Positions 28,698-39,410 of a stretch of 64,000 nucleotides of DNA are shown here, in pieces (within the stretch, counting starts at the first letter, position 1; every line of letters begins with the position of its first letter). Source of the stretch: Amycolatopsis endophytica (lineage in GTDB: Bacteria > Actinomycetota > Actinomycetes > Mycobacteriales > Pseudonocardiaceae); NCBI RefSeq assembly GCF_013410405.1, contig NZ_JACCFK010000001.1:62001-126000 (forward strand), in the 5' to 3' direction. The notes under the pieces were generated by a model, which was not told where the DNA came from, did no database searches, and saw only the letters and a program-made list of their open reading frames with translations. Both the position numbers and the translations under genes were made by a program.

Positions 28698-30257
28698 GTG
28701 ACAGCCGATGCCCAGGTCCAGGGCCTTTCGCAGGGTCTGGCGAAGCCCCGGACGCGACTGCCGGCCGTGGTCGCGCCGACGGTGGCGTTGTTCGGCGGCG
28801 CGCTCGCGCTGTGGGCGTGGGCGACCTGGCTCTCCCTCGTCTGGCACCTGCCCGCCTGGTCGACCGTCCCGCTGCACACGCTGGCCGTGTTCGGCCTGTT
28901 CACCGTGCTGCACGAGGCCGCACACCACGCCGCGGGCAGCGTGACCTGGCTGAACGGCGCCCTGGGGCGGCTGACGGTGCCGTTCGTGTCGCCCTTCGGC
29001 GGCTTTCCCGCCGCCCGATACGTGCACCTGACGCAGCACCGCTCCGGATCGCCGGAGCACCTGACGCCGTGGAACACGCGCGGGCCGTCGTGGACGCTGC
29101 CGCTGCGCTGGGCCACCGTCGACCTCTGGCACGCGTGGCGTTACCTCAGCACACCGGGCAGGCCGACCGCGGAGAGCGCTGAGATGCTCGCGGTGCTGGT
29201 GTTCCTGCCGTGTGTGCTGGCCGCCGTGGCCGGGACGGGCCACGGGTGGGAGCTGACCGTCGTGTACCTGCTTCCGCAGCGGCTGGCGCTCGTGCTGGTG
29301 TCGTGGTGCCACGACTGGCTGCCGAGGCGGCGCGCGAGCGGCTACCACCAGGTACACGCCGCGCGGCCCGGCCAGCCGTTCTACCGCTTCGCCGCGGTGC
29401 CGGCACCGCGCGTTTCGTCGCGGTCGGCCGTGGCCGCGGAAGCGCCGTCGGAGTTCCACCCGCTGACCGTGACCGGCGTGCGGTGGCTGACCGGCGAGGC
29501 CGTCGCGGTGAACCTGGCCGTGCCCGCGGAACTGCGGCAGGTGTTCCGGTTCGAGCCGGGCCAGCACCTGGTGCTGCGCGCGCTGGTCCAAGGCGAGCAG
29601 GTGGAGCGCAGCTACGCGATCTGCGCGAGTCAGGACGAGCCGGAGCTGCGCGTGGCGATCAAGCGGGTGCCGGGCGGACGGTTCTCCGAGTACGCGCTGG
29701 GCCTGCGGCTGGGTGACCGGGTGCTGGCGCGCCCGCCGTCGGGGCGGTTCGGGTTGCCTGCCGCGGCCCGCGAGGCCCGGCACGTCGTGGCCGTCGCCGC
29801 CGGGTCCGGGATCGTCCCGGTACTGCCGGTCGTGGTGCACGCGCTGGCGACCTCGCCCCGCACCCGCGTGACCCTGCTCTACGTCAACCGATCCGGTGAC
29901 GACACCCTGTTCGCCGACGACCTGTCCGAGTACACGCGCCGCTTCGAGGGACGCCTGCGGGTGATGCACTACCGGACCGACGAACGCGACCCGTCGCTGC
30001 GGCACGCCCGCGGCGCGAAGCCGTTCGACAGCATCGGCCAGGCGCTGGCCATCTCCTACGAGCGCTACCTGCCTGGCGGGCTGGACACCGGGCGGATCCG
30101 GTCACTGCTGGAGTCACGACTACACCCGTCCAAAGTGGACGAGTGGCTGCTGTGCGCGCCGCCCGAGGTCGCCGAGCCGGTCCGCGAAGCACTGGCGGAG
30201 CACGATGTCCCCGACGGCGCCGTGCACGTGGAGCACTTCCACCGCGGCCGGCGTTGA
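28698..30257 (+). CDS. Fusion: membrane diiron desaturase-like domain + FAD/NAD(P)H reductase domain
   Basis: A 519-residue two-domain protein. Residues 20-230 are a hydrophobic domain with histidine boxes like those of fatty acid desaturases and hydroxylases: HEAAHH (72-77), HLTQHRSGSPEH (110-121), and a divergent third set, H205 and HQVH (217-220). Residues 253-519 are a ferredoxin-NADP reductase-like module with FAD-binding RSYAICAS (304-311) and NAD(P)-binding GSGIVP (369-374). The plant-type 2Fe-2S domain that normally links such a reductase to a desaturase is absent. It would suit self-contained electron delivery to a lipid-modifying diiron site; that is inference. The GTG follows CAGGAG and is divergent from tig. 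Confidence 0.8.
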   Translation: MTADAQVQGLSQGLAKPRTRLPAVVAPTVALFGGALALWAWATWLSLVWHLPAWSTVPLHTLAVFGLFTVLHEAAHHAAGSVTWLNGALGRLTVPFVSPFGGFPAARYVHLTQHRSGSPEHLTPWNTRGPSWTLPLRWATVDLWHAWRYLSTPGRPTAESAEMLAVLVFLPCVLAAVAGTGHGWELTVVYLLPQRLALVLVSWCHDWLPRRRASGYHQVHAARPGQPFYRFAAVPAPRVSSRSAVAAEAPSEFHPLTVTGVRWLTGEAVAVNLAVPAELRQVFRFEPGQHLVLRALVQGEQVERSYAICASQDEPELRVAIKRVPGGRFSEYALGLRLGDRVLARPPSGRFGLPAAAREARHVVAVAAGSGIVPVLPVVVHALATSPRTRVTLLYVNRSGDDTLFADDLSEYTRRFEGRLRVMHYRTDERDPSLRHARGAKPFDSIGQALAISYERYLPGGLDTGRIRSLLESRLHPSKVDEWLLCAPPEVAEPVREALAEHDVPDGAVHVEHFHRGRR

Positions 30258-30284: not shown

Positions 30285-30869
30285 TCAGTTCTGGCCCGGA
30301 TCGGCGGTGCCGTCCTCGCGCCGCGGCATCGTGCCCTGCCGGCCCTGCTGCCCGCCGGACTGGTCGCTGCCCTCCGTGACGGTGTCGGCGGTGGCCGTTT
30401 GCCCGGACACCGAAGCGACGACCGTGACGGTGTCGCCGGTGGCGATGCTGCTGAGGTCGGCGTCGTTCCCGGCCGCGGTGTCGCTGTCGATCGTGTAGGT
30501 CCTGGTGTAGCCGTCGTCGCTGTGGGCGGTCAGCGAGGTCGAGCTGATCCCGGTGACCGTGCCGATCTGCATCGCCTCGGTCGTGTAGCCGCCCTTGCCG
30601 TCGGAGACCACGTACTCGCCGTGCAGCGCGCTGGACAGCGCGGCCTGCGAGCCGCCGGGCCCGCCCGGCATCTGGATACCGCCGCCCGGTCCGCCCTGCG
30701 TCGCCGACGCGTCGGTGGAGCCGCCTGCCGCGTAGATCGCCACGCCGCCCGCGCCGGCGACGCCGACCGCGATCGCGGCGGCCGCGACGGTCTTGCGCGC
30801 CGACCACTTCGACGGTGGCTGCTGGGCGCCCCATTCCCGGGCCTGCGATGCGGGCTGCTGTTCGGTCAT
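30285..30869 (-). CDS. DUF5666-like membrane-anchored protein
   Basis: A 194-residue protein with a cytoplasmic N-terminus and one helix near residues 28-46. A Gly-rich linker is followed by a small beta domain with the pattern GTVTGISSTSLTAHS ... GDTVTVVASVSGQTATADTV, as in DUF5666 repeats. The C-terminus is Gly/Gln/Arg rich. It probably sits outside the membrane with its beta domain in the cell envelope. It is divergent from the histidine kinase, and its promoter side carries CACAG-type repeats on its own strand, so it likely belongs to the same regulon. Confidence 0.72.
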   Translation of the reverse strand: MTEQQPASQAREWGAQQPPSKWSARKTVAAAAIAVGVAGAGGVAIYAAGGSTDASATQGGPGGGIQMPGGPGGSQAALSSALHGEYVVSDGKGGYTTEAMQIGTVTGISSTSLTAHSDDGYTRTYTIDSDTAAGNDADLSSIATGDTVTVVASVSGQTATADTVTEGSDQSGGQQGRQGTMPRREDGTADPGQN

Positions 30870-30917
30870 CGTCGCTTCCTCTCACTGGTGCGTCGAGGAC
30901 CAGCTTCGGCCGCGCCG

Positions 30918-30955
30918 CTGTGCGGGGACTGTGGGACGGATAGCGGATTTCTGTG
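30918..30955 (-). promoter_or_regulatory. CACAG direct-repeat array facing the DUF5666-like gene
   Basis: On the minus strand CACAG occurs at 30951-30955, 30929-30933 and 30918-30922. These fall on an 11-bp register with one degenerate step between the first two. The array ends 49 bases before the gene's ATG. It mirrors the plus-strand array that begins 12 bp away. Confidence 0.6.
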
Positions 30956-30966
30956 TCCCGGACAGA

Positions 30967-31020
30967 CACAGCTTCCGCACAGGAACCACACAACGACCCC
31001 ACACGAACCCGACGGAAAGT
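30967..31020 (+). promoter_or_regulatory. CACAG direct-repeat array and promoter of the histidine kinase gene
   Basis: CACAG, CACAG, CACAA and CACAC begin at 30967, 30978, 30989 and 31000, all exactly 11 bp apart. The CACAA ends 34 nt before the GTG. GAAAGT at 31015-31020 ends 7 nt before the GTG and could be a -10 element of a leaderless transcript. Phased direct repeats are typical of OmpR/PhoB-family response regulators. Confidence 0.7.
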
Positions 31021-31026
31021 CGGGGC

Positions 31027-32550
31027 GTGAACCTGCCCCACCCTGCCCGCTCGCGGGCCGGGACGCGACCGCGGCGCGTCCGGCCGCTGCGGACGAAGCT
31101 GATCGCGGCGCTCGTCACGCTGCTCGCCGTGGTCTGCCTGGTGGTCGGCGTGATCAGCGAGTTCGCGCTCAGCAGGTTCCTCACCGAGCAGGTCGACGCG
31201 CAGGTGCGGGACGCGGTCGAACGGACCCGGCACTTCGACGATCCGGCCGGTGGCGATCCGCTGCACATCCCGGGCACCGCGACCGGCACGCTCTACGCGC
31301 GGCTGTCCGGTGGCCAGATCCGCGAAGCGGCCACACTCGCGCCGGTCCAGGGTTCGCCGGAGAACGAAGCACGGGCGCTCGACGCCGCCGACGCCGCGGC
31401 CCTGCTCACCGTCCCGGTCGACGGCCAGGCCCACACGCTCGCCCTGTCCGGCGGCGACTACCGCGTGATCGCGACGCCGGCCCAGGGGTCGGTGCTGCTC
31501 CTCGGCCTGCCGATGGACCAGGCCGAGGACACTTTGCTGACCGTCGGGGTCATTCTGGCCGCGGTCGCCGCGGTCGCCGTGCTGGGCGCGGGTTTCGTCG
31601 GCGCGTTCGTCGTGCGCCGCACGTTGCGTCCGCTCGACCGGGTCGCCGCCGCCGCGTCGAAGGTCACCGAGCTGCCGCTGGAACGCGGCGACGTGGCCCT
31701 GTCCGTGCGCGTGCCGGTCACCGACACCGACCCCACGAGCGAAGTCGGCCAGGTCGGCCACGCGCTGAACCGGATGCTGGTGCACATCGACAACGCCCTC
31801 GACGCGCGCGCGAACAGTGAGATGCGGGTGCGTCAGTTCGTCGCCGACGCCAGTCACGAGCTGCGCACACCGCTGGCCGCGATCCGCGGGTACGCCGAGC
31901 TGACCCGGCGCAGCAACGGGCGGGTGCCGCCGGACATCTCGAACGCGATGAGCCGCGTCGAGTCCGAAGCGGACCGGATGACCACGCTGGTCGACGACCT
32001 GCTGCTGCTCGCCCGCCTCGACGCGGGCCGCCCGCTGGAGGTCGCCGAGGTCGACCTGACCCGGCTGGTCGCCGACGCGGTCAGCGACGCGCGCATCAGC
32101 GGCGGGCGGCATCGGTGGCGGCTCGAACTGCCGCCGGACCCGGTCGTCGTGCGTGGCGACGCCCAGCGCCTGCACCAGGTTCTGGCCAATCTGCTCGCCA
32201 ACGGCCGCACGCACACCCCGCCGGGCACGGCCGTGACGACCCGGCTGGCCGTGTCCGCGGACGGCAGTGCCGTGGTCACCGTCACCGACAACGGGCCCGG
32301 CATCGCGCCCGACCTGCTGCCGCACGTCTTCGAACGCTTCGCCCGCGGCGACTCCTCGCGTTCCCGCGCGGCAGGCAGCACCGGTCTCGGCATGGCGATC
32401 GCCGCCGCCGTCGTGGCGGCGCACCGCGGCACGGTCGACGTGCGTTCGAGGCCCGGCCGCACCGAGTTCGAGGTGCGGCTGCCGCACACAGCTTTCGCAC
32501 AGGAACGGCACAACCACGGCCAAGTTCGGCCGGTGAAAGTGAACCTATGA
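31027..32550 (+). CDS. Sensor histidine kinase (no adjacent response regulator)
   Basis: A 507-residue membrane sensor. A first helix spans about residues 24-46, an extracytoplasmic sensor of about 115 residues follows, and a second helix lies near 168-195 before a HAMP domain. The phosphoacceptor His277 is in ASHELRTPLAAIRGYAEL. The ATPase domain has the N box (LANLLANGRTHTPPG), DNGPGIAP and STGLGMAIAAAVV. The architecture is that of an OmpR-type partner kinase, yet no response regulator gene lies within the window. Its GTG start lies 34 nt after the repeat array, and its stop overlaps the glycosyltransferase start as ATGA. Confidence 0.88.
   Translation: MNLPHPARSRAGTRPRRVRPLRTKLIAALVTLLAVVCLVVGVISEFALSRFLTEQVDAQVRDAVERTRHFDDPAGGDPLHIPGTATGTLYARLSGGQIREAATLAPVQGSPENEARALDAADAAALLTVPVDGQAHTLALSGGDYRVIATPAQGSVLLLGLPMDQAEDTLLTVGVILAAVAAVAVLGAGFVGAFVVRRTLRPLDRVAAAASKVTELPLERGDVALSVRVPVTDTDPTSEVGQVGHALNRMLVHIDNALDARANSEMRVRQFVADASHELRTPLAAIRGYAELTRRSNGRVPPDISNAMSRVESEADRMTTLVDDLLLLARLDAGRPLEVAEVDLTRLVADAVSDARISGGRHRWRLELPPDPVVVRGDAQRLHQVLANLLANGRTHTPPGTAVTTRLAVSADGSAVVTVTDNGPGIAPDLLPHVFERFARGDSSRSRAAGSTGLGMAIAAAVVAAHRGTVDVRSRPGRTEFEVRLPHTAFAQERHNHGQVRPVKVNL
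32487..32540 (+). promoter_or_regulatory. CACAG array and putative internal promoter of first GT39-like gene
   Basis: CACAG, CACAG and CACAA begin at 32487, 32498 and 32509 inside the last codons of the kinase gene. CACAA ends 34 nt before the glycosyltransferase ATG, as at the kinase promoter. GAAAGT at 32535-32540 ends 7 nt before it. A 32-bp stretch here matches the kinase promoter at 28 positions. Confidence 0.65.
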
Positions 32551-34427
32551 CGGCCCTCGCCGAGCGCGGCTCCGCGCCCTCGACCCCCGAACCACCCGCC
32601 AGTCCGCGCCGCCCCGGATGGGTGCGACCGGCGCTGGGCGGTCTGCTGATCGCCACCGCGGTGCTCTACCTGTGGGGGCTGAGCGCTTCCGGCTGGGCCA
32701 ACGCGTTCTACTCCGCGGCGGCGCAGGCCGGTGGTGACAGCTGGACGGCGTGGTTCTTCGGGTCCAGTGACGCGGCGAACGCGATCACCGTCGACAAGAC
32801 ACCCGCCGCGCTGTGGGTGATGGGCCTGTCGGTGCGGCTGTTCGGGCTCAGCTCATGGAGCGTGCTGGTGCCGCAGGCGCTGATGGGCGTCGGGTCGGTG
32901 TGGGCGCTGTTCGCGACCGTGCGCCGGGTGTCCGGCCCCACCGCCGGGCTGCTCGCGGGTGGCGTGCTCGCACTGACCCCGGTGGCCGCGCTGATGTTCC
33001 GGTTCAACAACCCGGACGCGCTGCTGGTCCTGCTGCTCGTACTGGGCGCGTACGGCGTGGTGCGGTCGCTGGAGAAGGCGAGCCCGAAGTGGCTGGCGCT
33101 GGCGGGGGTCGCGGTCGGATTCGGGTTCCTGGCGAAGATGCTGCAGGCGTTCCTGGTGCTGCCCGCGTTCGGCATCGTCTACCTGATCGCGGCGCCGACC
33201 TCGCTGCGCAAGCGCTTGCTGCACCTGCTCGGCGCGCTGGGCGCGACGGTCGTCTCGGCGGGCTGGTACCTCGCGGTGGTCGAGTTGTGGCCGGCGGATT
33301 CGCGGCCGTTCATCGGCGGCTCGCAGCACGACAGCATCCTCGAACTGACCCTGGGCTACAACGGCGTCGGCCGCATCACCGGCGACGAGGTCGGCAGCCT
33401 CGGCGGCGCGCAGAGCAGCGGCAGCTGGGCCCGGCTGTTCGGCAGCGAGATGGCGGGCGGCATCGCGTGGCTACTGCCCGCCGCCGCCCTCGCGATCGGC
33501 GCGCTGGTCTGGCTGACCTGGCGCGCGCCGCGCACCGATCGCACGCGCGCCGCCACGATCGTCTGGGGTGGCTGGCTGATCGTGACCGGTGGCGTGTTCA
33601 GCTTCATGAGCGGAATCATCCACCCGTACTACACGGTGGCGCTGGCCCCGGCGGTCGCCGCGCTCGTCGGCACCGGCGTGGTGGGGTTGTGGCACGCGCG
33701 CACGCATCCGATCGCGTCCGGGCTGTTGTCCAGTGGTGTCGTGCTGACCACGCTGACCGCGTACCTGTTGCTGGAGCGGGAATCCACGTGGCTGCCCTGG
33801 CTGAAGTACGTGGTGCTGGTGCTCGGGCCGGCCGCCGCGGTGATGGTTTTGGTGTCCGACCGGCTGCCGCGGGCGGGCGGGCGCGGTGTGGCCGTGCTGG
33901 CCCTGCTCGCCACACTCGCCGGATCCGGCGCCTACACCGTGGCGACCGCGACCACCCCGCACTCCGGCGCGATCCCGTCGGCCGGACCGAGCAGCGGCGG
34001 GTTCGGCGGTTTCGGCGGGCCGGGCGGTCCGCCCAGTGGCGGTCAGGGCGGGATGCGCGGCGGCATCGGCAGCCTGCTCACCACGACCACCCCCAGCGCC
34101 GAGATGACCGCACTGCTGCAAGCCGACGCCGGGAACTACACGTGGGTCGCGGCCACGGTCGGTTCCAACCCCGCCGCGAGTTACCAGCTGGCCGCCGGTT
34201 TCCCGGTGATGGCCGTGGGCGGGTTCAACGGCACCGACCCCTCCCCCACGCTGGAGGAGTTCCGGGCGTACGTGGCCGCGGGGCGGATCCACTACTTCAT
34301 CGGCGAACCCACGCAAATCAACAGCACCGGCGGAAGCGACGCGGCCGAGGAGATCGCCGAGTGGGTCGCGTCCAATTACACCTCGACCACAGTGGACGGT
34401 GTCACGGTGTACGACCTGACTTCCTAG
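32547..34427 (+). CDS. ArnT/GT39-like membrane glycosyltransferase, copy 1
   Basis: A 626-residue polytopic protein with roughly 10-12 helices in residues 28-470, related to the GT39/ArnT-like family that uses polyprenyl-phosphate sugars. The first loop has SSDAANAITVDKTPAALW with acidic residues typical of the catalytic loop. RFNNPDALLVLLLVLGAY and GFLAKMLQAFLVLPAF follow. A Gly/Ser/Pro-rich stretch near residues 485-515 links to a C-terminal soluble domain (GNYTWVAATVGSNPAASYQL) outside the membrane. It is coupled to the histidine kinase by ATGA. It is paralogous to, and the same length as, the copy at 37530. Confidence 0.85.
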   Translation: MTALAERGSAPSTPEPPASPRRPGWVRPALGGLLIATAVLYLWGLSASGWANAFYSAAAQAGGDSWTAWFFGSSDAANAITVDKTPAALWVMGLSVRLFGLSSWSVLVPQALMGVGSVWALFATVRRVSGPTAGLLAGGVLALTPVAALMFRFNNPDALLVLLLVLGAYGVVRSLEKASPKWLALAGVAVGFGFLAKMLQAFLVLPAFGIVYLIAAPTSLRKRLLHLLGALGATVVSAGWYLAVVELWPADSRPFIGGSQHDSILELTLGYNGVGRITGDEVGSLGGAQSSGSWARLFGSEMAGGIAWLLPAAALAIGALVWLTWRAPRTDRTRAATIVWGGWLIVTGGVFSFMSGIIHPYYTVALAPAVAALVGTGVVGLWHARTHPIASGLLSSGVVLTTLTAYLLLERESTWLPWLKYVVLVLGPAAAVMVLVSDRLPRAGGRGVAVLALLATLAGSGAYTVATATTPHSGAIPSAGPSSGGFGGFGGPGGPPSGGQGGMRGGIGSLLTTTTPSAEMTALLQADAGNYTWVAATVGSNPAASYQLAAGFPVMAVGGFNGTDPSPTLEEFRAYVAAGRIHYFIGEPTQINSTGGSDAAEEIAEWVASNYTSTTVDGVTVYDLTS

Positions 34428-35623
34428 GCGGACGACAGTGCCCGGACGCCGCGGTCACACAGAGCGGCCGCGGTGGCCAGGCTCACGAGCGCGGCGCCGG
34501 TGAACAGGGTGGCCCGCACGCCGATTGCCGAGGCCGGGCCCACCACCATCTCGCCCACGGGCACGGCGACCAGGGAGCCGAGCGCGTCGAACGAGTACAC
34601 CTTCGCCAGCTGGTCCTCGGGAATATGGTGCTGCAACGAAACATCCCAGGCAACGGCGAACTGCTCGATCCCGAAACCGGCCAGCACCATCGCGACGAGC
34701 AGCGGCACCACCGCGGGTGCCGCTGCCATGACGGCCATCGGCACCGCCAGCAGGGCGGTCGCGGCGACGCCGACGAACAGGGCGTGCCGTGACCGCCCCC
34801 GGGCGGCGAGCACGCCACCTGCCAGGGCGCCCACGGTCTCCGCCCCCAGGACGAAACCCCAGGCGGTGCGGCCGATCGTGGCGTCGGCGATCCCCGGGCC
34901 GAGGACCTGGACGCATCCGGCGAACACCGCGTTGACCACCATGAACTGCAGGACCACGACCCACACCCACGACCGGCTGGTGAACTCCCGCCAGCCTTCG
35001 CGCAGGTCCGCCGGCGGCCGCCCCGGCACCGGTCGCGGACCCGCCGGACCGATACGGCGATAGCACCCGGCGGCGAGCATGAAGGCGACCCCGGCCGCCG
35101 CGAGCGCCCACCCCGGACCGGCCGTGGCGGCGAGCAACCCACCGAGCGGCGCGCCGGTGATCGTCGCGGTGTTCTGCGCCATCCTGGCCACCGCGTTTGC
35201 CGGGCGGAGCAGTTCCGCCGAGACGGTCTGCGAAGTGAGGGCCAGCGCGGCGGGCAGCGCGGCCGCCGCGACCGCGCCGTTGACGACGTTCAGCCCGACC
35301 AGCAAAGGCACCGAGGCTGCCCCGGTGAGGACGGACGCGGCGATGGCGACCTGGCTGAGCGCGGCGACCGCAGCCGTCCCCTGGAGGATCACTGGCCGGG
35401 GCAGCCGGTCGGCGAGAACCCCGCCGCACAACAGAAGCACCACCATCGCGACCGACCGCGCGCCCACCACGACACCGACGTCGACCACCGACCCGGTGAG
35501 ATCCAGCACGGCGAACGCGAGGGCCACCGGCGCCACGGCGTTACCCAGGTAGCTCGCGAACCTGCCCGCCGCGAGGCCCCGGAACTGCCGGTACCGCAAG
35601 GGATCCCGGAGTCCGGCGCTCAT
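34424..35623 (-). CDS. MFS transporter
   Basis: A 399-residue carrier with about 12 helices and a motif-A-like CGGVLADRLPRPVILQG after helix 2. The relation to actinobacterial drug-export MFS proteins is only general. Its stop shares the palindrome CTAG with the stop of the convergent glycosyltransferase, leaving no room for a terminator. The ATG overlaps the ArsR stop as ATGA. The ArsR-MFS pair looks inserted between two parts of the glycosylation cluster. Confidence 0.82.
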   Translation of the reverse strand: MSAGLRDPLRYRQFRGLAAGRFASYLGNAVAPVALAFAVLDLTGSVVDVGVVVGARSVAMVVLLLCGGVLADRLPRPVILQGTAAVAALSQVAIAASVLTGAASVPLLVGLNVVNGAVAAAALPAALALTSQTVSAELLRPANAVARMAQNTATITGAPLGGLLAATAGPGWALAAAGVAFMLAAGCYRRIGPAGPRPVPGRPPADLREGWREFTSRSWVWVVVLQFMVVNAVFAGCVQVLGPGIADATIGRTAWGFVLGAETVGALAGGVLAARGRSRHALFVGVAATALLAVPMAVMAAAPAVVPLLVAMVLAGFGIEQFAVAWDVSLQHHIPEDQLAKVYSFDALGSLVAVPVGEMVVGPASAIGVRATLFTGAALVSLATAAALCDRGVRALSSA

Positions 35624-36138
35624 CGCCGTGGGTCCATGGGGAACAGCGACACCGTCGCACTGACCCGTACCGTTCCCGGCGTCCGCGGAGGCTTCGCAGA
35701 CGCGTGGAGCAACTCGCTCACCTGACGCGCGTGGTGCATAGCCGCTTGCCAGACGCGCGGCTCCACCCAGACTTCGGCGTCGGTCACGGTGCTCCGGCCT
35801 CGCGGGCTGCGCAACTCGGTCCGCCTGCGAAGCTCCTCACCGAGGGCAGCCGCCATCGCGACGTGGTCCTCCTGCCCGGAGACAAGCCGCTCGCCGCTGG
35901 CCGGATCGTGCCGGTACCGCTTCGCGCGGCCGCCGCGAATCGACACCTCTTCCGCGATGCGCAACAGGCCCGCCGCGTGCAACCGCCGCAGGTGGTAGCT
36001 GACGTTGGCCTGGCTCTCCCCCAGCTCCCGGCCCACCTCCGCGGCGCTCATGGAGGCACCGGTCAGCAGCGAGAGGATGCGCAACCGCAGCGGATGCGCG
36101 ACCGCGCGGAAGCCGAGGAGCCGTTCGTCGTTGGTCAC
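35620..36138 (-). CDS. ArsR-family winged-helix regulator
   Basis: A 172-residue regulator with residues 10-75 forming the winged helix (HPLRLRILSLLTGASMSAAE, then ESQANVSYHLRRLHAAGLL). No cysteine-rich metal site is visible, so it is probably not a metal sensor. It starts at GTG and is coupled by ATGA to the MFS gene, which it likely controls. It is divergent from the GT2-GtrA gene. Confidence 0.84.
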   Translation of the reverse strand: MTNDERLLGFRAVAHPLRLRILSLLTGASMSAAEVGRELGESQANVSYHLRRLHAAGLLRIAEEVSIRGGRAKRYRHDPASGERLVSGQEDHVAMAAALGEELRRRTELRSPRGRSTVTDAEVWVEPRVWQAAMHHARQVSELLHASAKPPRTPGTVRVSATVSLFPMDPRR

Positions 36139-36201
36139 GTCGGCGAGTCTGCGGCGTCGCTGTCCAGCCAGTCAAACATCTCTTTGGGGGTCGCGAAAGC
36201 T

Positions 36202-36255
36202 CATAGTCCCCACACAGTCCGGGCACAAGGACGCCCCAGCGCGCGGCGGAACCGT
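36202..36255 (+). promoter_or_regulatory. CACAG-type array and promoter of the GT2-GtrA gene
   Basis: CATAG, CACAG and CACAA begin at 36202, 36213 and 36224, with 11-bp spacing. CACAA again ends 34 nt before the ATG. AACCGT at 36250-36255 occupies the same place as the GAAAGT boxes of the other two promoters and keeps the conserved second A and final T of a -10 box. Confidence 0.65.
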
Positions 36256-36261
36256 GGGGGC

Positions 36262-37500
36262 ATGACAGTCACGCTTCCCGCGGCGGGCCCCGGCACCACC
36301 CGCATCGACACCCGGACCACCACCCCGGTGCTCGATGTCGTCATCCCGGTCTACAACGAGGAAACCGACCTGGAGCCGTGCATCCGCGGGCTGCACGCGC
36401 ACCTCGCCTCGACGCTGCCCTACCGCTTCCGGATCACCGTCGCCGACAACGCGAGCACCGACGCCACCCTGCCCATCGCCGAGCGGCTCGCGCGTGAGTT
36501 CGCCGAGGTCGAGGTGCACCACCTGGACCTCAAGGGCCGTGGGCGAGCGCTGAACGCGGTGTGGTCCGCCTCCGACGCTCCCGTCGTGGCCTATCTGGAC
36601 GTCGACCTGTCGACCGACCTCGCCGCACTGGCACCGCTGGTGGCTCCGCTGATCTCCGGGCACTCGGACGTCGCGATCGGCTCGCGGCTGGCGCGCGGTG
36701 CCCGTGTGGTGCGCGGGCCGAAGCGCGAGTTCATCTCCCGCTGCTACAACCTGATCCTGCGTGGCGCGCTCGCCGCGAAGTTCTCCGACGCGCAGTGCGG
36801 GTTCAAGGCGATCCGCTCGGACGTGGCCAGGCAGCTGCTGCCGCTCGTCGAGGACACCGGCTGGTTCTTCGACACCGAACTGCTCGTGCTCGCCGAACGA
36901 GCGGGCCTGCGCATCCACGAGGTCCCGGTGGACTGGGTGGATGACCCGGACTCGTCGGTCGACATCGTGAAGACCGCGACCGCCGATCTCAAGGGCGTCG
37001 CCCGGATGCTGCGCGCCTTCGGCAAGGGCACGTTGCCGATCAGTGAGCTGCGCGCCCAGCTGGGCCGTCACCCGATCGGCGTCTCGGCGCCCGGCGTGCC
37101 ACCGAAACTGGCCACGCAGCTGGTGCGGTTCGCCGCGATCGGCGTCGGCAGTACGCTCGCCTACCTCCTGCTGTTCCTGGTGTTGCGCCTGGGAATGGGC
37201 GCCCAGCTCGCGAACTGTCTCGCGCTGGGCGTCACGGCGGTGGCCAACACCGCCGCCAACCGCCGGTTCACCTTCGGCGTCCGGGGCGCCCAGGGCGCCG
37301 GGCGGCACCAGTTCGAGGGCCTGATCGTGTTCGGGCTCGGGCTGGTCCTCACCAGCGGATCGCTCGCACTGGTCAACAGCCTCACGGCGCCAGGACTCGC
37401 ACTCGAACTGACCGTTCTGGTGCTGGCCAACCTCGCCGCGACCGTCCTCCGGTTCGTCCTGCTGCGCGGCTGGGTGTTCCACCCGCGGCGCCGGAACTGA
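36262..37500 (+). CDS. GT2 glycosyltransferase-GtrA fusion (polyprenyl-phosphate sugar synthase type)
   Basis: A 412-residue fusion. Residues 25-260 are a GT-A fold like dolichol-phosphate mannose/glucose synthases: LDVVIPVYNEETDLEPCIRG, AYLDVDLSTDLAAL (DxD-like) and SDAQCGFKAIRSDVARQLLP. Residues 285-405 are a four-helix GtrA domain (FAAIGVGSTLAYLLLFLVL) proposed to flip the lipid-linked sugar. The expected product is a polyprenyl-phosphate sugar, which could be the donor for the GT39-like enzymes on either side. It is followed after 29 bases by the second GT39-like gene. The array upstream ties it to the same regulator. Confidence 0.87.
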   Translation: MTVTLPAAGPGTTRIDTRTTTPVLDVVIPVYNEETDLEPCIRGLHAHLASTLPYRFRITVADNASTDATLPIAERLAREFAEVEVHHLDLKGRGRALNAVWSASDAPVVAYLDVDLSTDLAALAPLVAPLISGHSDVAIGSRLARGARVVRGPKREFISRCYNLILRGALAAKFSDAQCGFKAIRSDVARQLLPLVEDTGWFFDTELLVLAERAGLRIHEVPVDWVDDPDSSVDIVKTATADLKGVARMLRAFGKGTLPISELRAQLGRHPIGVSAPGVPPKLATQLVRFAAIGVGSTLAYLLLFLVLRLGMGAQLANCLALGVTAVANTAANRRFTFGVRGAQGAGRHQFEGLIVFGLGLVLTSGSLALVNSLTAPGLALELTVLVLANLAATVLRFVLLRGWVFHPRRRN

Positions 37501-37529: not shown

Positions 37530-39410
37530 ATGACCAGCGTCCTGACCGAGCCGGCCCGCACCGGGCCGCGGCACCGGGCCGGGGAACCCGCCGGCTCCCC
37601 GCCGCGAGGCCGCCTGAACCGCCTCCTGCGGGGCCCGGAGAACCAGCCCGCCTGGGTGCGGCCCGCGGTGCTCGCGCTGCTGGCCGCGACCGCGGTGCTC
37701 TACTTCTGGAACCTCACCGCCTCCGGCTACGGCAACGGCTTCTACGCCGCCGCCGTGCAGGCGGGCACCCAGGACCCGAAAGCCTGGTTGTTCGGCTCGC
37801 TCGACTCCGGCAACTCCATCACCGTGGACAAACCACCGGCCGCGCTGTGGGTCGCGGTCGCCTTCGCCCGCGTCTTCGGGTTCTCCAGCTTCACGGTGCT
37901 GGCCCCGCAGGCGCTCATGGGCGTGGCGTCGGTCGGCGCGCTGTACGCGACGGTGAAGCGCACGTCGGGTCCCGTGGTCGCGTTGTTCGCCGGTGCCGCG
38001 TTCGCGCTGACCCCGGTGGCCGTGCTGATGTTCCGGTTCAACAATCCGGACGCGCTGCTCGTGCTGCTGCTCATCGCGGGCGCCTACTGCACCGCGCGCG
38101 CCACCGAGAAGGCGAGCGGGAAGTGGCTGGCGCTGGCCGGTGTCGCGATCGGGTTCGCCTTCCTCACCAAGATGATGCAGGCGTTCCTGGTGCTGCCGGC
38201 GTTCGCACTGGTGTACCTGGTCGGCGCCGACACTCCGTTGCGCAGGCGGCTGCTGCACCTGCTCGGCGCATTGGTCGCGGTGGTCGCGTCGGCGGGCTGG
38301 TTCGTCGCGCTGGTGGAGATCTGGCCCGCGTCGTCGCGCCCCTACATCGGCGGCTCGACCACCGACAGCCTGCTGGAGCTGGCCCTGGGCTACAACGGAC
38401 TGGGCCGGATCTTCGGCGGCGACGGCAACATGGGCGGTGGCGGGGGTGGTGGTACCGGTTTCGGCGGTGACACTGGCATCTTCCGGATGTTCAACACCTC
38501 CTTCGGCACCGAGATCTCCTGGCTGCTCCCGGCGGCGGTGATCGGGCTGGGCGCCGGACTGTGGTTCACCCGCCGCGCCCCGCGCAGCGACCGCACCCGG
38601 CTTTCGCTGCTCCTGTGGGGCGGCTGGCTGGTCGTGACGGCCACGGTGTTCAGCTTCATGAGCGGCACCGTCCACCCGTACTACTCGGTCGCGCTCGCCC
38701 CGGCGATCGCCGCGCTGAGCGCGATCGCGGGCAGGGCGCTGTGGCGGGGCAGGGCGAACTTCTCCGCCCGCGCGGTGCTGGCCGGCATGGTCGCGGTGAC
38801 CGCGGTGTGGACCTACATCCTGCTGGCGCGCACCCCGGACTACCTGCCGTGGTTGAAGTTCGTGGTCGTCGCGCTCGGGTTGGTGGTGTCGACCGGCCTG
38901 CTGGTCGGGGCCACGCAGTTCAAGCGGATCAGCGCGGTGGTGGTGACGGCCGCGGTGCTGGTGTTCGGCCTCGGTGGCGCGGCCTACGCGGTGTCCACGG
39001 GGAGCGTCGCGCACACCGGTTCGACGCCGTCCTCCGGGCCGAGCAGCAGTGCCATGGGCGGCACGGGTGGCATGGATGGGTCGGCTTCGTCGGAGCTGAC
39101 CACGGCCCTGTCGCGGACCACCACCAAGTGGGCGGCCGCGGTCAGCGGATCGCAGCAGGCGGCGAGCCTGGAACTGGCCACCGGCAAGGCGGTCATCGCG
39201 ATCGGCGGCTGGGACGGCAGCGACGATTCGCCGACGTTGGAACAGTTCCAGGACTCCGTCGCGGCCGGGGAGATCGGGTACTACGTCTCCGGTACCGGGA
39301 TGGGCGGCGGCATGGGCGGCGACGGCTCGGCCGGGGAGATCCAGGAATGGGTCGAGGCCACCTTCACGGCCACGACCATCGGCGGCACGACGGTGTACGT
39401 GCTCAGCTGA
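37530..39410 (+). CDS. ArnT/GT39-like membrane glycosyltransferase, copy 2
   Basis: A 626-residue paralogue of the enzyme at 32547, with the same order of blocks: LDSGNSITVDKPPAALW, RFNNPDALLVLLLIAGAY and FLTKMMQAFLVLPAF. A Gly-rich external loop lies near residues 298-315. The Ser/Gly linker and C-terminal soluble domain (KWAAAVSGSQQAASLELATG) are also conserved. It probably transfers a sugar from the lipid carrier made by the preceding GT2-GtrA protein to a cell-envelope acceptor. The acceptor is unknown. GAAAGAGAG upstream of the ATG serves as ribosome site. A strong terminator follows. Confidence 0.85.
   Translation: MTSVLTEPARTGPRHRAGEPAGSPPRGRLNRLLRGPENQPAWVRPAVLALLAATAVLYFWNLTASGYGNGFYAAAVQAGTQDPKAWLFGSLDSGNSITVDKPPAALWVAVAFARVFGFSSFTVLAPQALMGVASVGALYATVKRTSGPVVALFAGAAFALTPVAVLMFRFNNPDALLVLLLIAGAYCTARATEKASGKWLALAGVAIGFAFLTKMMQAFLVLPAFALVYLVGADTPLRRRLLHLLGALVAVVASAGWFVALVEIWPASSRPYIGGSTTDSLLELALGYNGLGRIFGGDGNMGGGGGGGTGFGGDTGIFRMFNTSFGTEISWLLPAAVIGLGAGLWFTRRAPRSDRTRLSLLLWGGWLVVTATVFSFMSGTVHPYYSVALAPAIAALSAIAGRALWRGRANFSARAVLAGMVAVTAVWTYILLARTPDYLPWLKFVVVALGLVVSTGLLVGATQFKRISAVVVTAAVLVFGLGGAAYAVSTGSVAHTGSTPSSGPSSSAMGGTGGMDGSASSELTTALSRTTTKWAAAVSGSQQAASLELATGKAVIAIGGWDGSDDSPTLEQFQDSVAAGEIGYYVSGTGMGGGMGGDGSAGEIQEWVEATFTATTIGGTTVYVLS

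Follow-up and report, generated by a model that had tools for sequence, protein, structure and literature searches.

The window analysed here is a stretch of 64,000 nucleotides of the Amycolatopsis endophytica genome (contig NZ_JACCFK010000001.1, positions 62,001 to 126,000), in which three genes of an envelope glycosylation locus, encoding a sensor histidine kinase, a GT39/PMT_2 transferase and a GT2-GtrA fusion protein, are each preceded by an array of CACAG-like repeats with an 11-bp period, and a mirrored array faces a divergent DUF5666-like gene. These arrays are genuine and conserved, and a mechanism of a known kind accounts for them. We propose, with a probability of about 0.78, that an autoregulated activator of the TcrX/PhoP type, which probably receives its input from two kinases, drives a cassette for lipid-linked-sugar glycosylation, the promoters of which would be leaderless. 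The proposal is built on the geometry of the sequence, the confinement of good matches to two loci, conservation, and linkage, all of which are observed; from these, we infer binding, activation as opposed to repression, the transcript start, phosphotransfer, and the sugar and its acceptor.

In the proposed mechanism, the arrays would be operators of a response regulator of the OmpR/PhoB family, TcrX/PhoP group, whose gene lies outside the window, at a paralogous locus elsewhere in the genome. Two tandem dimers would sit on the four phased half-sites, covering the -35 region 10 bp ahead of the -10 hexamer, and the bound regulator would recruit RNA polymerase, with transcription starting at or near the start codon to give a leaderless mRNA. 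The predicted targets are the regulator-kinase operon, the orphan kinase of the window, and the GT2-GtrA and first GT39 genes, as well as two DUF5666-like genes, which would have a short leader. The GT2-GtrA proteins would make and flip a lipid-linked sugar, and transferases of the GT39/YkcB type would pass the sugar to an envelope acceptor. A compact regulon is thereby proposed for an orphan class of actinomycete envelope glycosyltransferases, along with a code by which TcrX-type regulators may recognize DNA; a genome-wide screen published in 2024 had found no obvious consensus for them, as far as the accessible part of that report goes (PMC10883919). No description of this regulon was found in the open-access (PMC) literature, in the portions of text available there; subscription papers lie outside that search.

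Phased arrays in two paralogous loci

The arrays share a four-unit frame with an 11-bp period (CACAG, CACAG, CACA-N and a loose fourth unit), followed after 10 nt by a -10-like hexamer, NANNNT. The four arrays of the window are as follows.

30967..31004, forward strand: array of the histidine kinase promoter, CACAG/CACAG/CACAA/CACAC; -10-like GAAAGT at 31015-31020; start codon GTG at 31027
32487..32524, forward strand: array of the first GT39 promoter, CACAG/CACAG/CACAA/CCAAG; -10-like GAAAGT at 32535-32540; start codon ATG at 32547
36202..36239, forward strand: array of the GT2-GtrA promoter, CATAG/CACAG/CACAA/CCCAG; -10-like AACCGT at 36250-36255; start codon ATG at 36262
30918..30955, reverse strand: mirrored array of the DUF5666-like promoter, CACAG/GCTAT/CACAG/CACAG; -10-like GAAGCT at 30902-30907
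Units of the mirrored array, reverse strand: CACAG at 30951-30955, GCTAT (degenerate) at 30940-30944, CACAG at 30929-30933, CACAG at 30918-30922

A pattern search confirmed the element CACAG-N6-CACAG-N6-CACAA that the first-pass annotation had reported, with exact copies at 30967-30993 and 32487-32513 and a copy with one mismatch (CATAG) at 36202-36228; the array of the first GT39 promoter is located within the 3' end of the kinase gene. The fourth repeat described there for the kinase promoter (CACAC at 31000) is present as well, but a fourth phased unit belongs to all four promoters and had been missed outside this one, being loose in two of the three forward promoters (CCAAG and CCCAG). The distance from unit 3 to the start codon is fixed in the three forward promoters, as claimed, with 33 nt intervening (the earlier value of 34 is an offset count), and the hexamer likewise holds a constant position, with 6 nt between it and the start codon where it had been said to end 7 nt before.

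The mirrored array, also noted in the first pass, has the same geometry, with GAAGCT 10 nt past unit 4. The ATG of the DUF5666-like gene (first base 30869) is farther from the hexamer than in the forward promoters, so that its transcript would carry a leader. Across the seven promoters of the window and the paralogous locus, the units stand at 0, 11, 22 and 33; the window GT2 promoter (CATAG) and both DUF promoters have one deviating unit among the first three, and several promoters have a loose fourth unit. What does not vary is the spacing between unit 4 and the hexamer, and the distance to the start codon would be constant because transcription, if our reading holds, begins at the start codon.

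Within the window, a search allowing up to three mismatches yielded six matches, compared to 1.37 expected, and none of 100 shuffles reached six. Two of these matches read the same arrays in a shifted phase, and another (45925, three mismatches) is unrelated. Two arrays contain GGAAC, which has the appearance of a -35 element of extracytoplasmic function (ECF) sigma factors; inspected by eye, this candidate was rejected, being absent from the promoter at 36202 and too distant from the hexamer.

The entire genome (7,197,368 bases, two contigs) was scanned with the reversed pattern as the control. The three-unit pattern with up to two mismatches occurs 13 times, compared to 9 control matches, and all six matches with zero or one mismatch, which represent five distinct promoters, fall in two glycosylation loci (the three window promoters, and three matches in two promoters at C1:2249304 and 2251611/2251622). 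Array plus hexamer, again with up to two mismatches, gave six matches, three in the window and three in the paralogous locus, compared to two in the control; one of those in the paralogous locus is its mirrored DUF promoter, and the window counterpart is too degenerate (more than two mismatches) to be among the six. Good matches to the motif are thus not scattered, in agreement with the regulon predicted by the first-pass annotation. Chance occurrence of the array is rejected by the reversed-pattern controls and by resampled sequences, with the caveat of 13 against 9 matches without the hexamer. The match at C1:5007442 is read as chance, since no open reading frame (ORF) of at least 130 aa starts at the right distance on its strand.

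The paralogous locus (L014) consists of a DUF5666-like gene on the minus strand, divergent arrays, a response regulator gene, a kinase gene, another array, and the GT2-GtrA and GT39 genes. The regulator gene, of the OmpR type (C1:2249364-2250110), has its own array, and the kinase promoter of the window occupies the position of the regulator promoter. The paralogous pairs are 80% (GT2), 64% (GT39b) and 52% (DUF) identical. No relative of this regulator, whether gene or remnant, was detected in the window by tblastn (E 1e-3), a feature of the locus that the earlier annotation had missed.

The two kinases share 59 of 71 residues (83%) in the phosphotransfer domain and 43 of 122 (35%) in the sensor region. 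A kinase tree was built from 47 sequences, with only four of the Streptomyces kinases and no match shorter than about 380 residues; in it, the 10 kinases without a neighboring regulator gene, nine from named Amycolatopsis and that of the window, form one group with support of 100/99. The simplest history suggested by these comparisons is that the locus was duplicated within the family and one copy then lost its regulator gene, leaving a second copy with an orphan kinase; since the tree leaves the forks to the regulator-bearing Amycolatopsis kinases open, the duplication may be older or younger, and a transfer between genera may also have taken part. With its diverged sensor and very similar phosphotransfer domain, the orphan kinase probably serves the regulator of the other copy, so that the regulator-less locus may be a natural example of one regulator served by two kinases.

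Conservation of the arrays and the candidate regulator

Named loci, the best 80 of at least 579 relatives, were fetched by homology to the GT2-GtrA protein without reference to the motif. When only arrays with a score of at least 12/14 and an ORF start 5-120 nt downstream were counted, an array was found directly before the GT2 gene in 77 of the 80 loci, so that conservation before orthologous genes extends far beyond the genus. Arrays also precede regulator (34), GT39 (34), DUF (17) and kinase (9) genes in the same loci. In a separate count, the array was detected in 76 of the 80 GT2 upstream regions, compared to 23 of 4000 first-order resampled sequences and 13 of 1089 upstream regions of unrelated ORFs in the same loci; L091, a match in the former tally, is a miss here, probably due to a late alignment start.

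Among the arrays picked on the CACAG letters alone, each with an ORF start 5-120 nt downstream, 150 of 154 promoters have NANNNT exactly at its expected offset (GT2, 76/77; regulator, 31/34; kinase, 9/9; GT39, 34/34), whereas other offsets give a mean of 4.0 of 154, and a shift of a single base in either direction at most one promoter; 14 of the 17 DUF promoters fit too. An in-frame start codon follows at 33 or 34 nt in 77/77 GT2, 30/34 regulator, 9/9 kinase and 24/34 GT39 promoters, such that leaderless-like geometry, with the hexamer about 6-7 nt before the start, is found in 140 of the 154 and the fixed start-codon distance first noticed in the window holds for most promoters of these four genes. 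Ten GT39 promoters, mostly from Actinoplanes relatives, keep the hexamer and not this distance, and the DUF promoters likewise lack a start codon at 33-34 nt or carry leaders. The position of the array, over the -35 region, suggests activation through polymerase contact.

For column conservation, each of 23 genus labels (two of them groups of metagenome-assembled genomes) was represented by a single GT2 promoter. The array letters are 95-100% conserved, whereas 15 of the 18 N6 spacer columns are at 34-52% and the other three at 65-78%; the fourth unit retains its A (100%) and G (82%). Because the arrays in this set were chosen partly by start distance and hexamer, the figure of 98-100% for the hexamer letters leans that way, whereas the count over 154 promoters was made without this selection.

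The response regulator gene is present in 59 of the 80 loci, and outside Streptomyces all 33 such genes have their own array at the 12/14 threshold. The regulator of A. endophytica contains a receiver domain (PF00072) and a winged-helix Trans_reg_C domain (PF00486) and is 97% identical to a protein of Amycolatopsis thermophila. Its best relative of solved structure (PDB) is Mycobacterium tuberculosis PhoP (262 bits), followed by PrrA (196), MtrA (163) and RegX3 (158). Its best mycobacterial matches, at about 362-380 bits, are named TcrX in databases, and 12 full-length mycobacterial relatives are 69-76% identical to it, including L226, which is 100% identical to M. interjectum TcrX; a PhoP-type protein of the same genus label (L270) is 56% identical, and a mycobacterial TcrX-type relative itself scores 266 bits against PhoP. 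Direct orthology to M. tuberculosis PhoP was rejected, the best mycobacterial match being of the TcrX type. Judged by its sequence, the regulator is a member of the TcrX/PhoP group, and the presence of such a gene, with an array at its own promoter, in the paralogous locus supports the guess of an OmpR/PhoB-type regulator made in the first pass.

The motif VELY-[IV]-SYLR-[KR]-K is found in the recognition helix in all 50 rows of an upstream survey of 30 loci from 169 genomes with a match and 20 hand-picked regions, in which three genes are counted twice (L200/L240, L203/L244 and L223/L239). The residues of PhoP reported to contact bases are Asn212, Val213, Glu215, Ser216, Tyr217 and Tyr220 (PMC4832192, accessible part); aligned by eye, the regulator has N, I, E, L, Y and Y at these positions, that is, four identical, one conservative and one changed. 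Across the genomes of the class, the regulator is held by 50 of the 51 with a strict array, compared to 119 of the 245 without (Fisher p 7e-13, a statistic that ignores kinship). Among 13 fetched mycobacterial copies (L225-L237), 11 have a CACAG/CATAG array upstream, each with an in-frame start 32-34 nt after it; one of the other two lacks the array, and the upstream region of L232 is too short to judge. The regulator is a likely candidate for the protein acting on the arrays in this genome.

Cassette genes and wider occurrence of the box

The genes of the window locus are the following.

30285..30869, reverse strand: DUF5666-like protein, 194 aa, sub-threshold Pfam match, one membrane segment by eye
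31027..32550, forward strand: sensor histidine kinase (HAMP, HisKA, HATPase_c)
32547..34427, forward strand: first GT39/PMT_2 transferase, with YkcB_C domain
36262..37500, forward strand: GT2-GtrA fusion, predicted lipid-linked sugar synthase with flippase-type domain
37530..39410, forward strand: second GT39/PMT_2 transferase with YkcB_C, without its own array

The DUF5666 label (PF18914), given in the first pass to the gene behind the mirrored array, is to be read as sub-threshold, with 16.8 bits for the window protein and 20.5 for its paralogue at a gathering cut-off of 27. That annotation had also placed both GT39 genes in one regulon; this stands for the first, which has an array, and the second, which has none, probably shares the GT2-GtrA transcript. 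The cassette combines PF00535, PF04138, PF13231 and PF24878 (GT-A synthase, GtrA-type flippase and GT-C transferase together) and, by analogy with three-component glycosylation (PMC13390465, accessible part), should make, flip and transfer a lipid-linked sugar outside the membrane.

The gene order is DUF5666-like gene, divergent arrays, kinase, array, first GT39, an MFS transporter and an ArsR-type regulator, array, GT2-GtrA and second GT39. The MFS and ArsR-type genes (34424-36138), both on the minus strand, look like an insertion in this lineage, given that the GT39 and GT2-GtrA alignments are only about 105-145 bp apart in seven other Amycolatopsis loci (L020, L021, L022, L024, L025, L026 and L028). 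By eye, the DUF5666-like protein and both GT39 proteins (30285-30869, 32547-34427 and 37530-39410) contain glycine-rich stretches. An oxidoreductase gene encoding FAD- and NAD-binding domains (28698-30257) adjoins the DUF5666-like gene and has no array.

In all 19 genomes of the genus, a looser form of the array was detected (76 matches compared to 12 in the control), and 27 of 30 fetched loci adjoin cassette genes. The strict array with the hexamer was found in 28 of 150 genomes of the order (no control matches) and 51 of 296 genomes of the class (one control match), the two sets overlapping; 49 of 56 loci fetched from the order and class contain genes related to the cassette or to its two-component system, some only a kinase upstream. 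A composite pattern, comprising parts of units 3 and 4 and an ATG at 33 nt, gave 40 matches in 35 of the 296 genomes and none in the control. Among 30 fetched composite loci, 15 precede regulators (ten 66-78% and five 53-56% identical to that of A. endophytica), four GT2 and two GT39 genes; the remainder comprise four genes for HtrA-like proteases (three identified by a domain scan and one, by eye, of the same kind), two for ferric-reductase-like proteins and three that could not be assigned.

Similar boxes before other genes elsewhere, another point absent from the first-pass annotation, indicate that the box belongs to a regulator clade and is not private to one regulator or cassette everywhere. 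At L259, L260 and L268, an array-like element with an ATG at 33 nt precedes HtrA-like proteases (Trypsin_2 and PDZ domains), which suggests that a related regulator uses a similar box there. An array with an ATG at 33 nt also precedes ferric-reductase-like membrane proteins at L192/L267 (one site) and L273. Strict arrays upstream of Dioxygenase_C proteins (L171, L183 and L193) occur in genomes of other families, at distances other than 33 nt; these genes are possible further targets of the same regulator clade. We tentatively put forward, at somewhat less than even odds, a broader view in which the operator of four half-sites in fixed geometry would be the ancestral code of the entire TcrX/PhoP clade of actinobacterial regulators, TcrX-type regulators would run the glycosylation cassette in many actinomycetes, and the second Amycolatopsis locus, lacking a regulator gene, would represent two divergent sensors converging on one regulator.

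Alternative explanations and comparison with known systems

Several observations weigh against the proposed activator. The array was not found at three of the 80 GT2 loci (one Kineosporia, two Rhodococcus). In Streptomyces, the regulator promoter reaches the threshold in only one of 26 named regulator-bearing loci, at an odd distance, and ten rows of a Streptomyces-looking family (f33) have an array score of 10-11/14, with hexamer and start kept. Among the 245 genomes of the class without a strict array, 119 still hold the regulator. In mycobacteria, only two of the 11 promoters with an array have the hexamer precisely at its usual offset, and in several others it seems shifted by one base; the site reported for TcrX is a mirror repeat of 7 bp, scrambling of which abolished binding, with two bound promoters lacking the motif (PMC10883919, accessible part). 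The composite pattern matches none of the promoters of A. endophytica itself, and elsewhere similar boxes precede genes for HtrA-like proteases, ferric-reductase-like and dioxygenase-domain proteins, and more distant PhoP-type regulators, so that another member of the clade could bind at the window arrays. Finally, the genome contains 54 matches to the regulator including itself, and 17 others that align over both domains, so that it holds further OmpR-type regulators; the next in rank, 49% identical, scores about as well against PhoP (234 bits) as against PrrA (230 bits).

It is therefore conceivable, if unlikely, that a different OmpR-family regulator of the same genome (MtrA-, PrrA- or MprA-like) binds the arrays and the linked TcrX/PhoP-type gene is one more target, as these 17 matches and the composite matches before distant PhoP-type regulators and HtrA-like proteases would allow. 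Such a binder is at odds with the TcrX/PhoP type of the regulator beside the arrays in all 33 regulator-bearing loci outside Streptomyces (where other regulator types were not searched for), with the presence of this type in 50 of 51 array-positive genomes, and with the retention of four of the six base-contacting residues of PhoP, one of the others being conservative and one changed. Two known actinomycete regulators were rejected as binders on their different cores, the phosphate PhoP (GTTCACC, PMC9019756) and CutR (TAWATAAA, PMC12802291), as these are given in the accessible parts of the two sources.

Overlap of the array with the expected -35 position would also fit a repressor, whose dimers would exclude RNA polymerase. 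We consider this quite unlikely, because the exact spacing to the -10 hexamer in 150 of 154 promoters suits polymerase contact and a repressor site needs no such spacing, and M. tuberculosis TcrXY is reported to auto-induce its own operon (PMC10883919, accessible part). It is highly improbable that the similarity merely reflects promoters duplicated along with the genes, with no present function: the loci are paralogous and some promoters do share descent, but the units are 95-100% conserved over 23 genus labels while most spacer columns are near background, the element is common to promoters of unrelated genes (kinase or regulator, GT39, GT2), and the -10 offset is nearly invariant. An activator of the TcrX/PhoP group thus remains our preferred reading.

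The statements on published systems below follow the accessible parts of the sources. The M. tuberculosis PhoP box is TCACAGC-N4-TCACAGC, and PhoP binds direct repeats as a tandem dimer, with cooperative extension to trimers and tetramers given proper repeats (PMC4832192). The arrays have the same CACAG core and the same 11-bp period in direct repeats, and four half-sites one helix step apart would fit two tandem dimers bound in this manner. Of the box flanks, T precedes unit 1 in 65% of the GT2 promoters (one per genus label), and C after the unit is not conserved. The gene of the mycobacterial regulator L270, PhoP-type by eye, has the composite array-plus-ATG geometry. The system described here differs from PhoPR in that the regulator is closer to TcrX and the linked targets form a glycosylation cassette.

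Autoregulation, reported for TcrXY, would be paralleled here through the array at the promoter of the regulator. Unlike the reported mirror repeat, phased CACAG/CATAG repeats are found upstream of mycobacterial TcrX-type genes, and the words 'glycosyl' and 'mannosyltransferase' are absent from the main text of the TcrX paper (PMC10883919). The phosphate PhoP of Streptomyces and Actinosynnema is likewise a response regulator with 11-bp direct repeats (the PHO box, PMC9019756), with a different core sequence and different targets. CutRS of Streptomyces, another actinomycete two-component system with mapped sites, is concerned with secretion stress, and its site differs (PMC12802291). In the extracytoplasmic glycosylation systems of three components, a GT-A synthase, a GtrA flippase and a GT-C transferase (PMC13390465), the general plan fits that of the GT2-GtrA and GT39 proteins, with the difference that here GT2 and GtrA are fused and linked to a two-component system.

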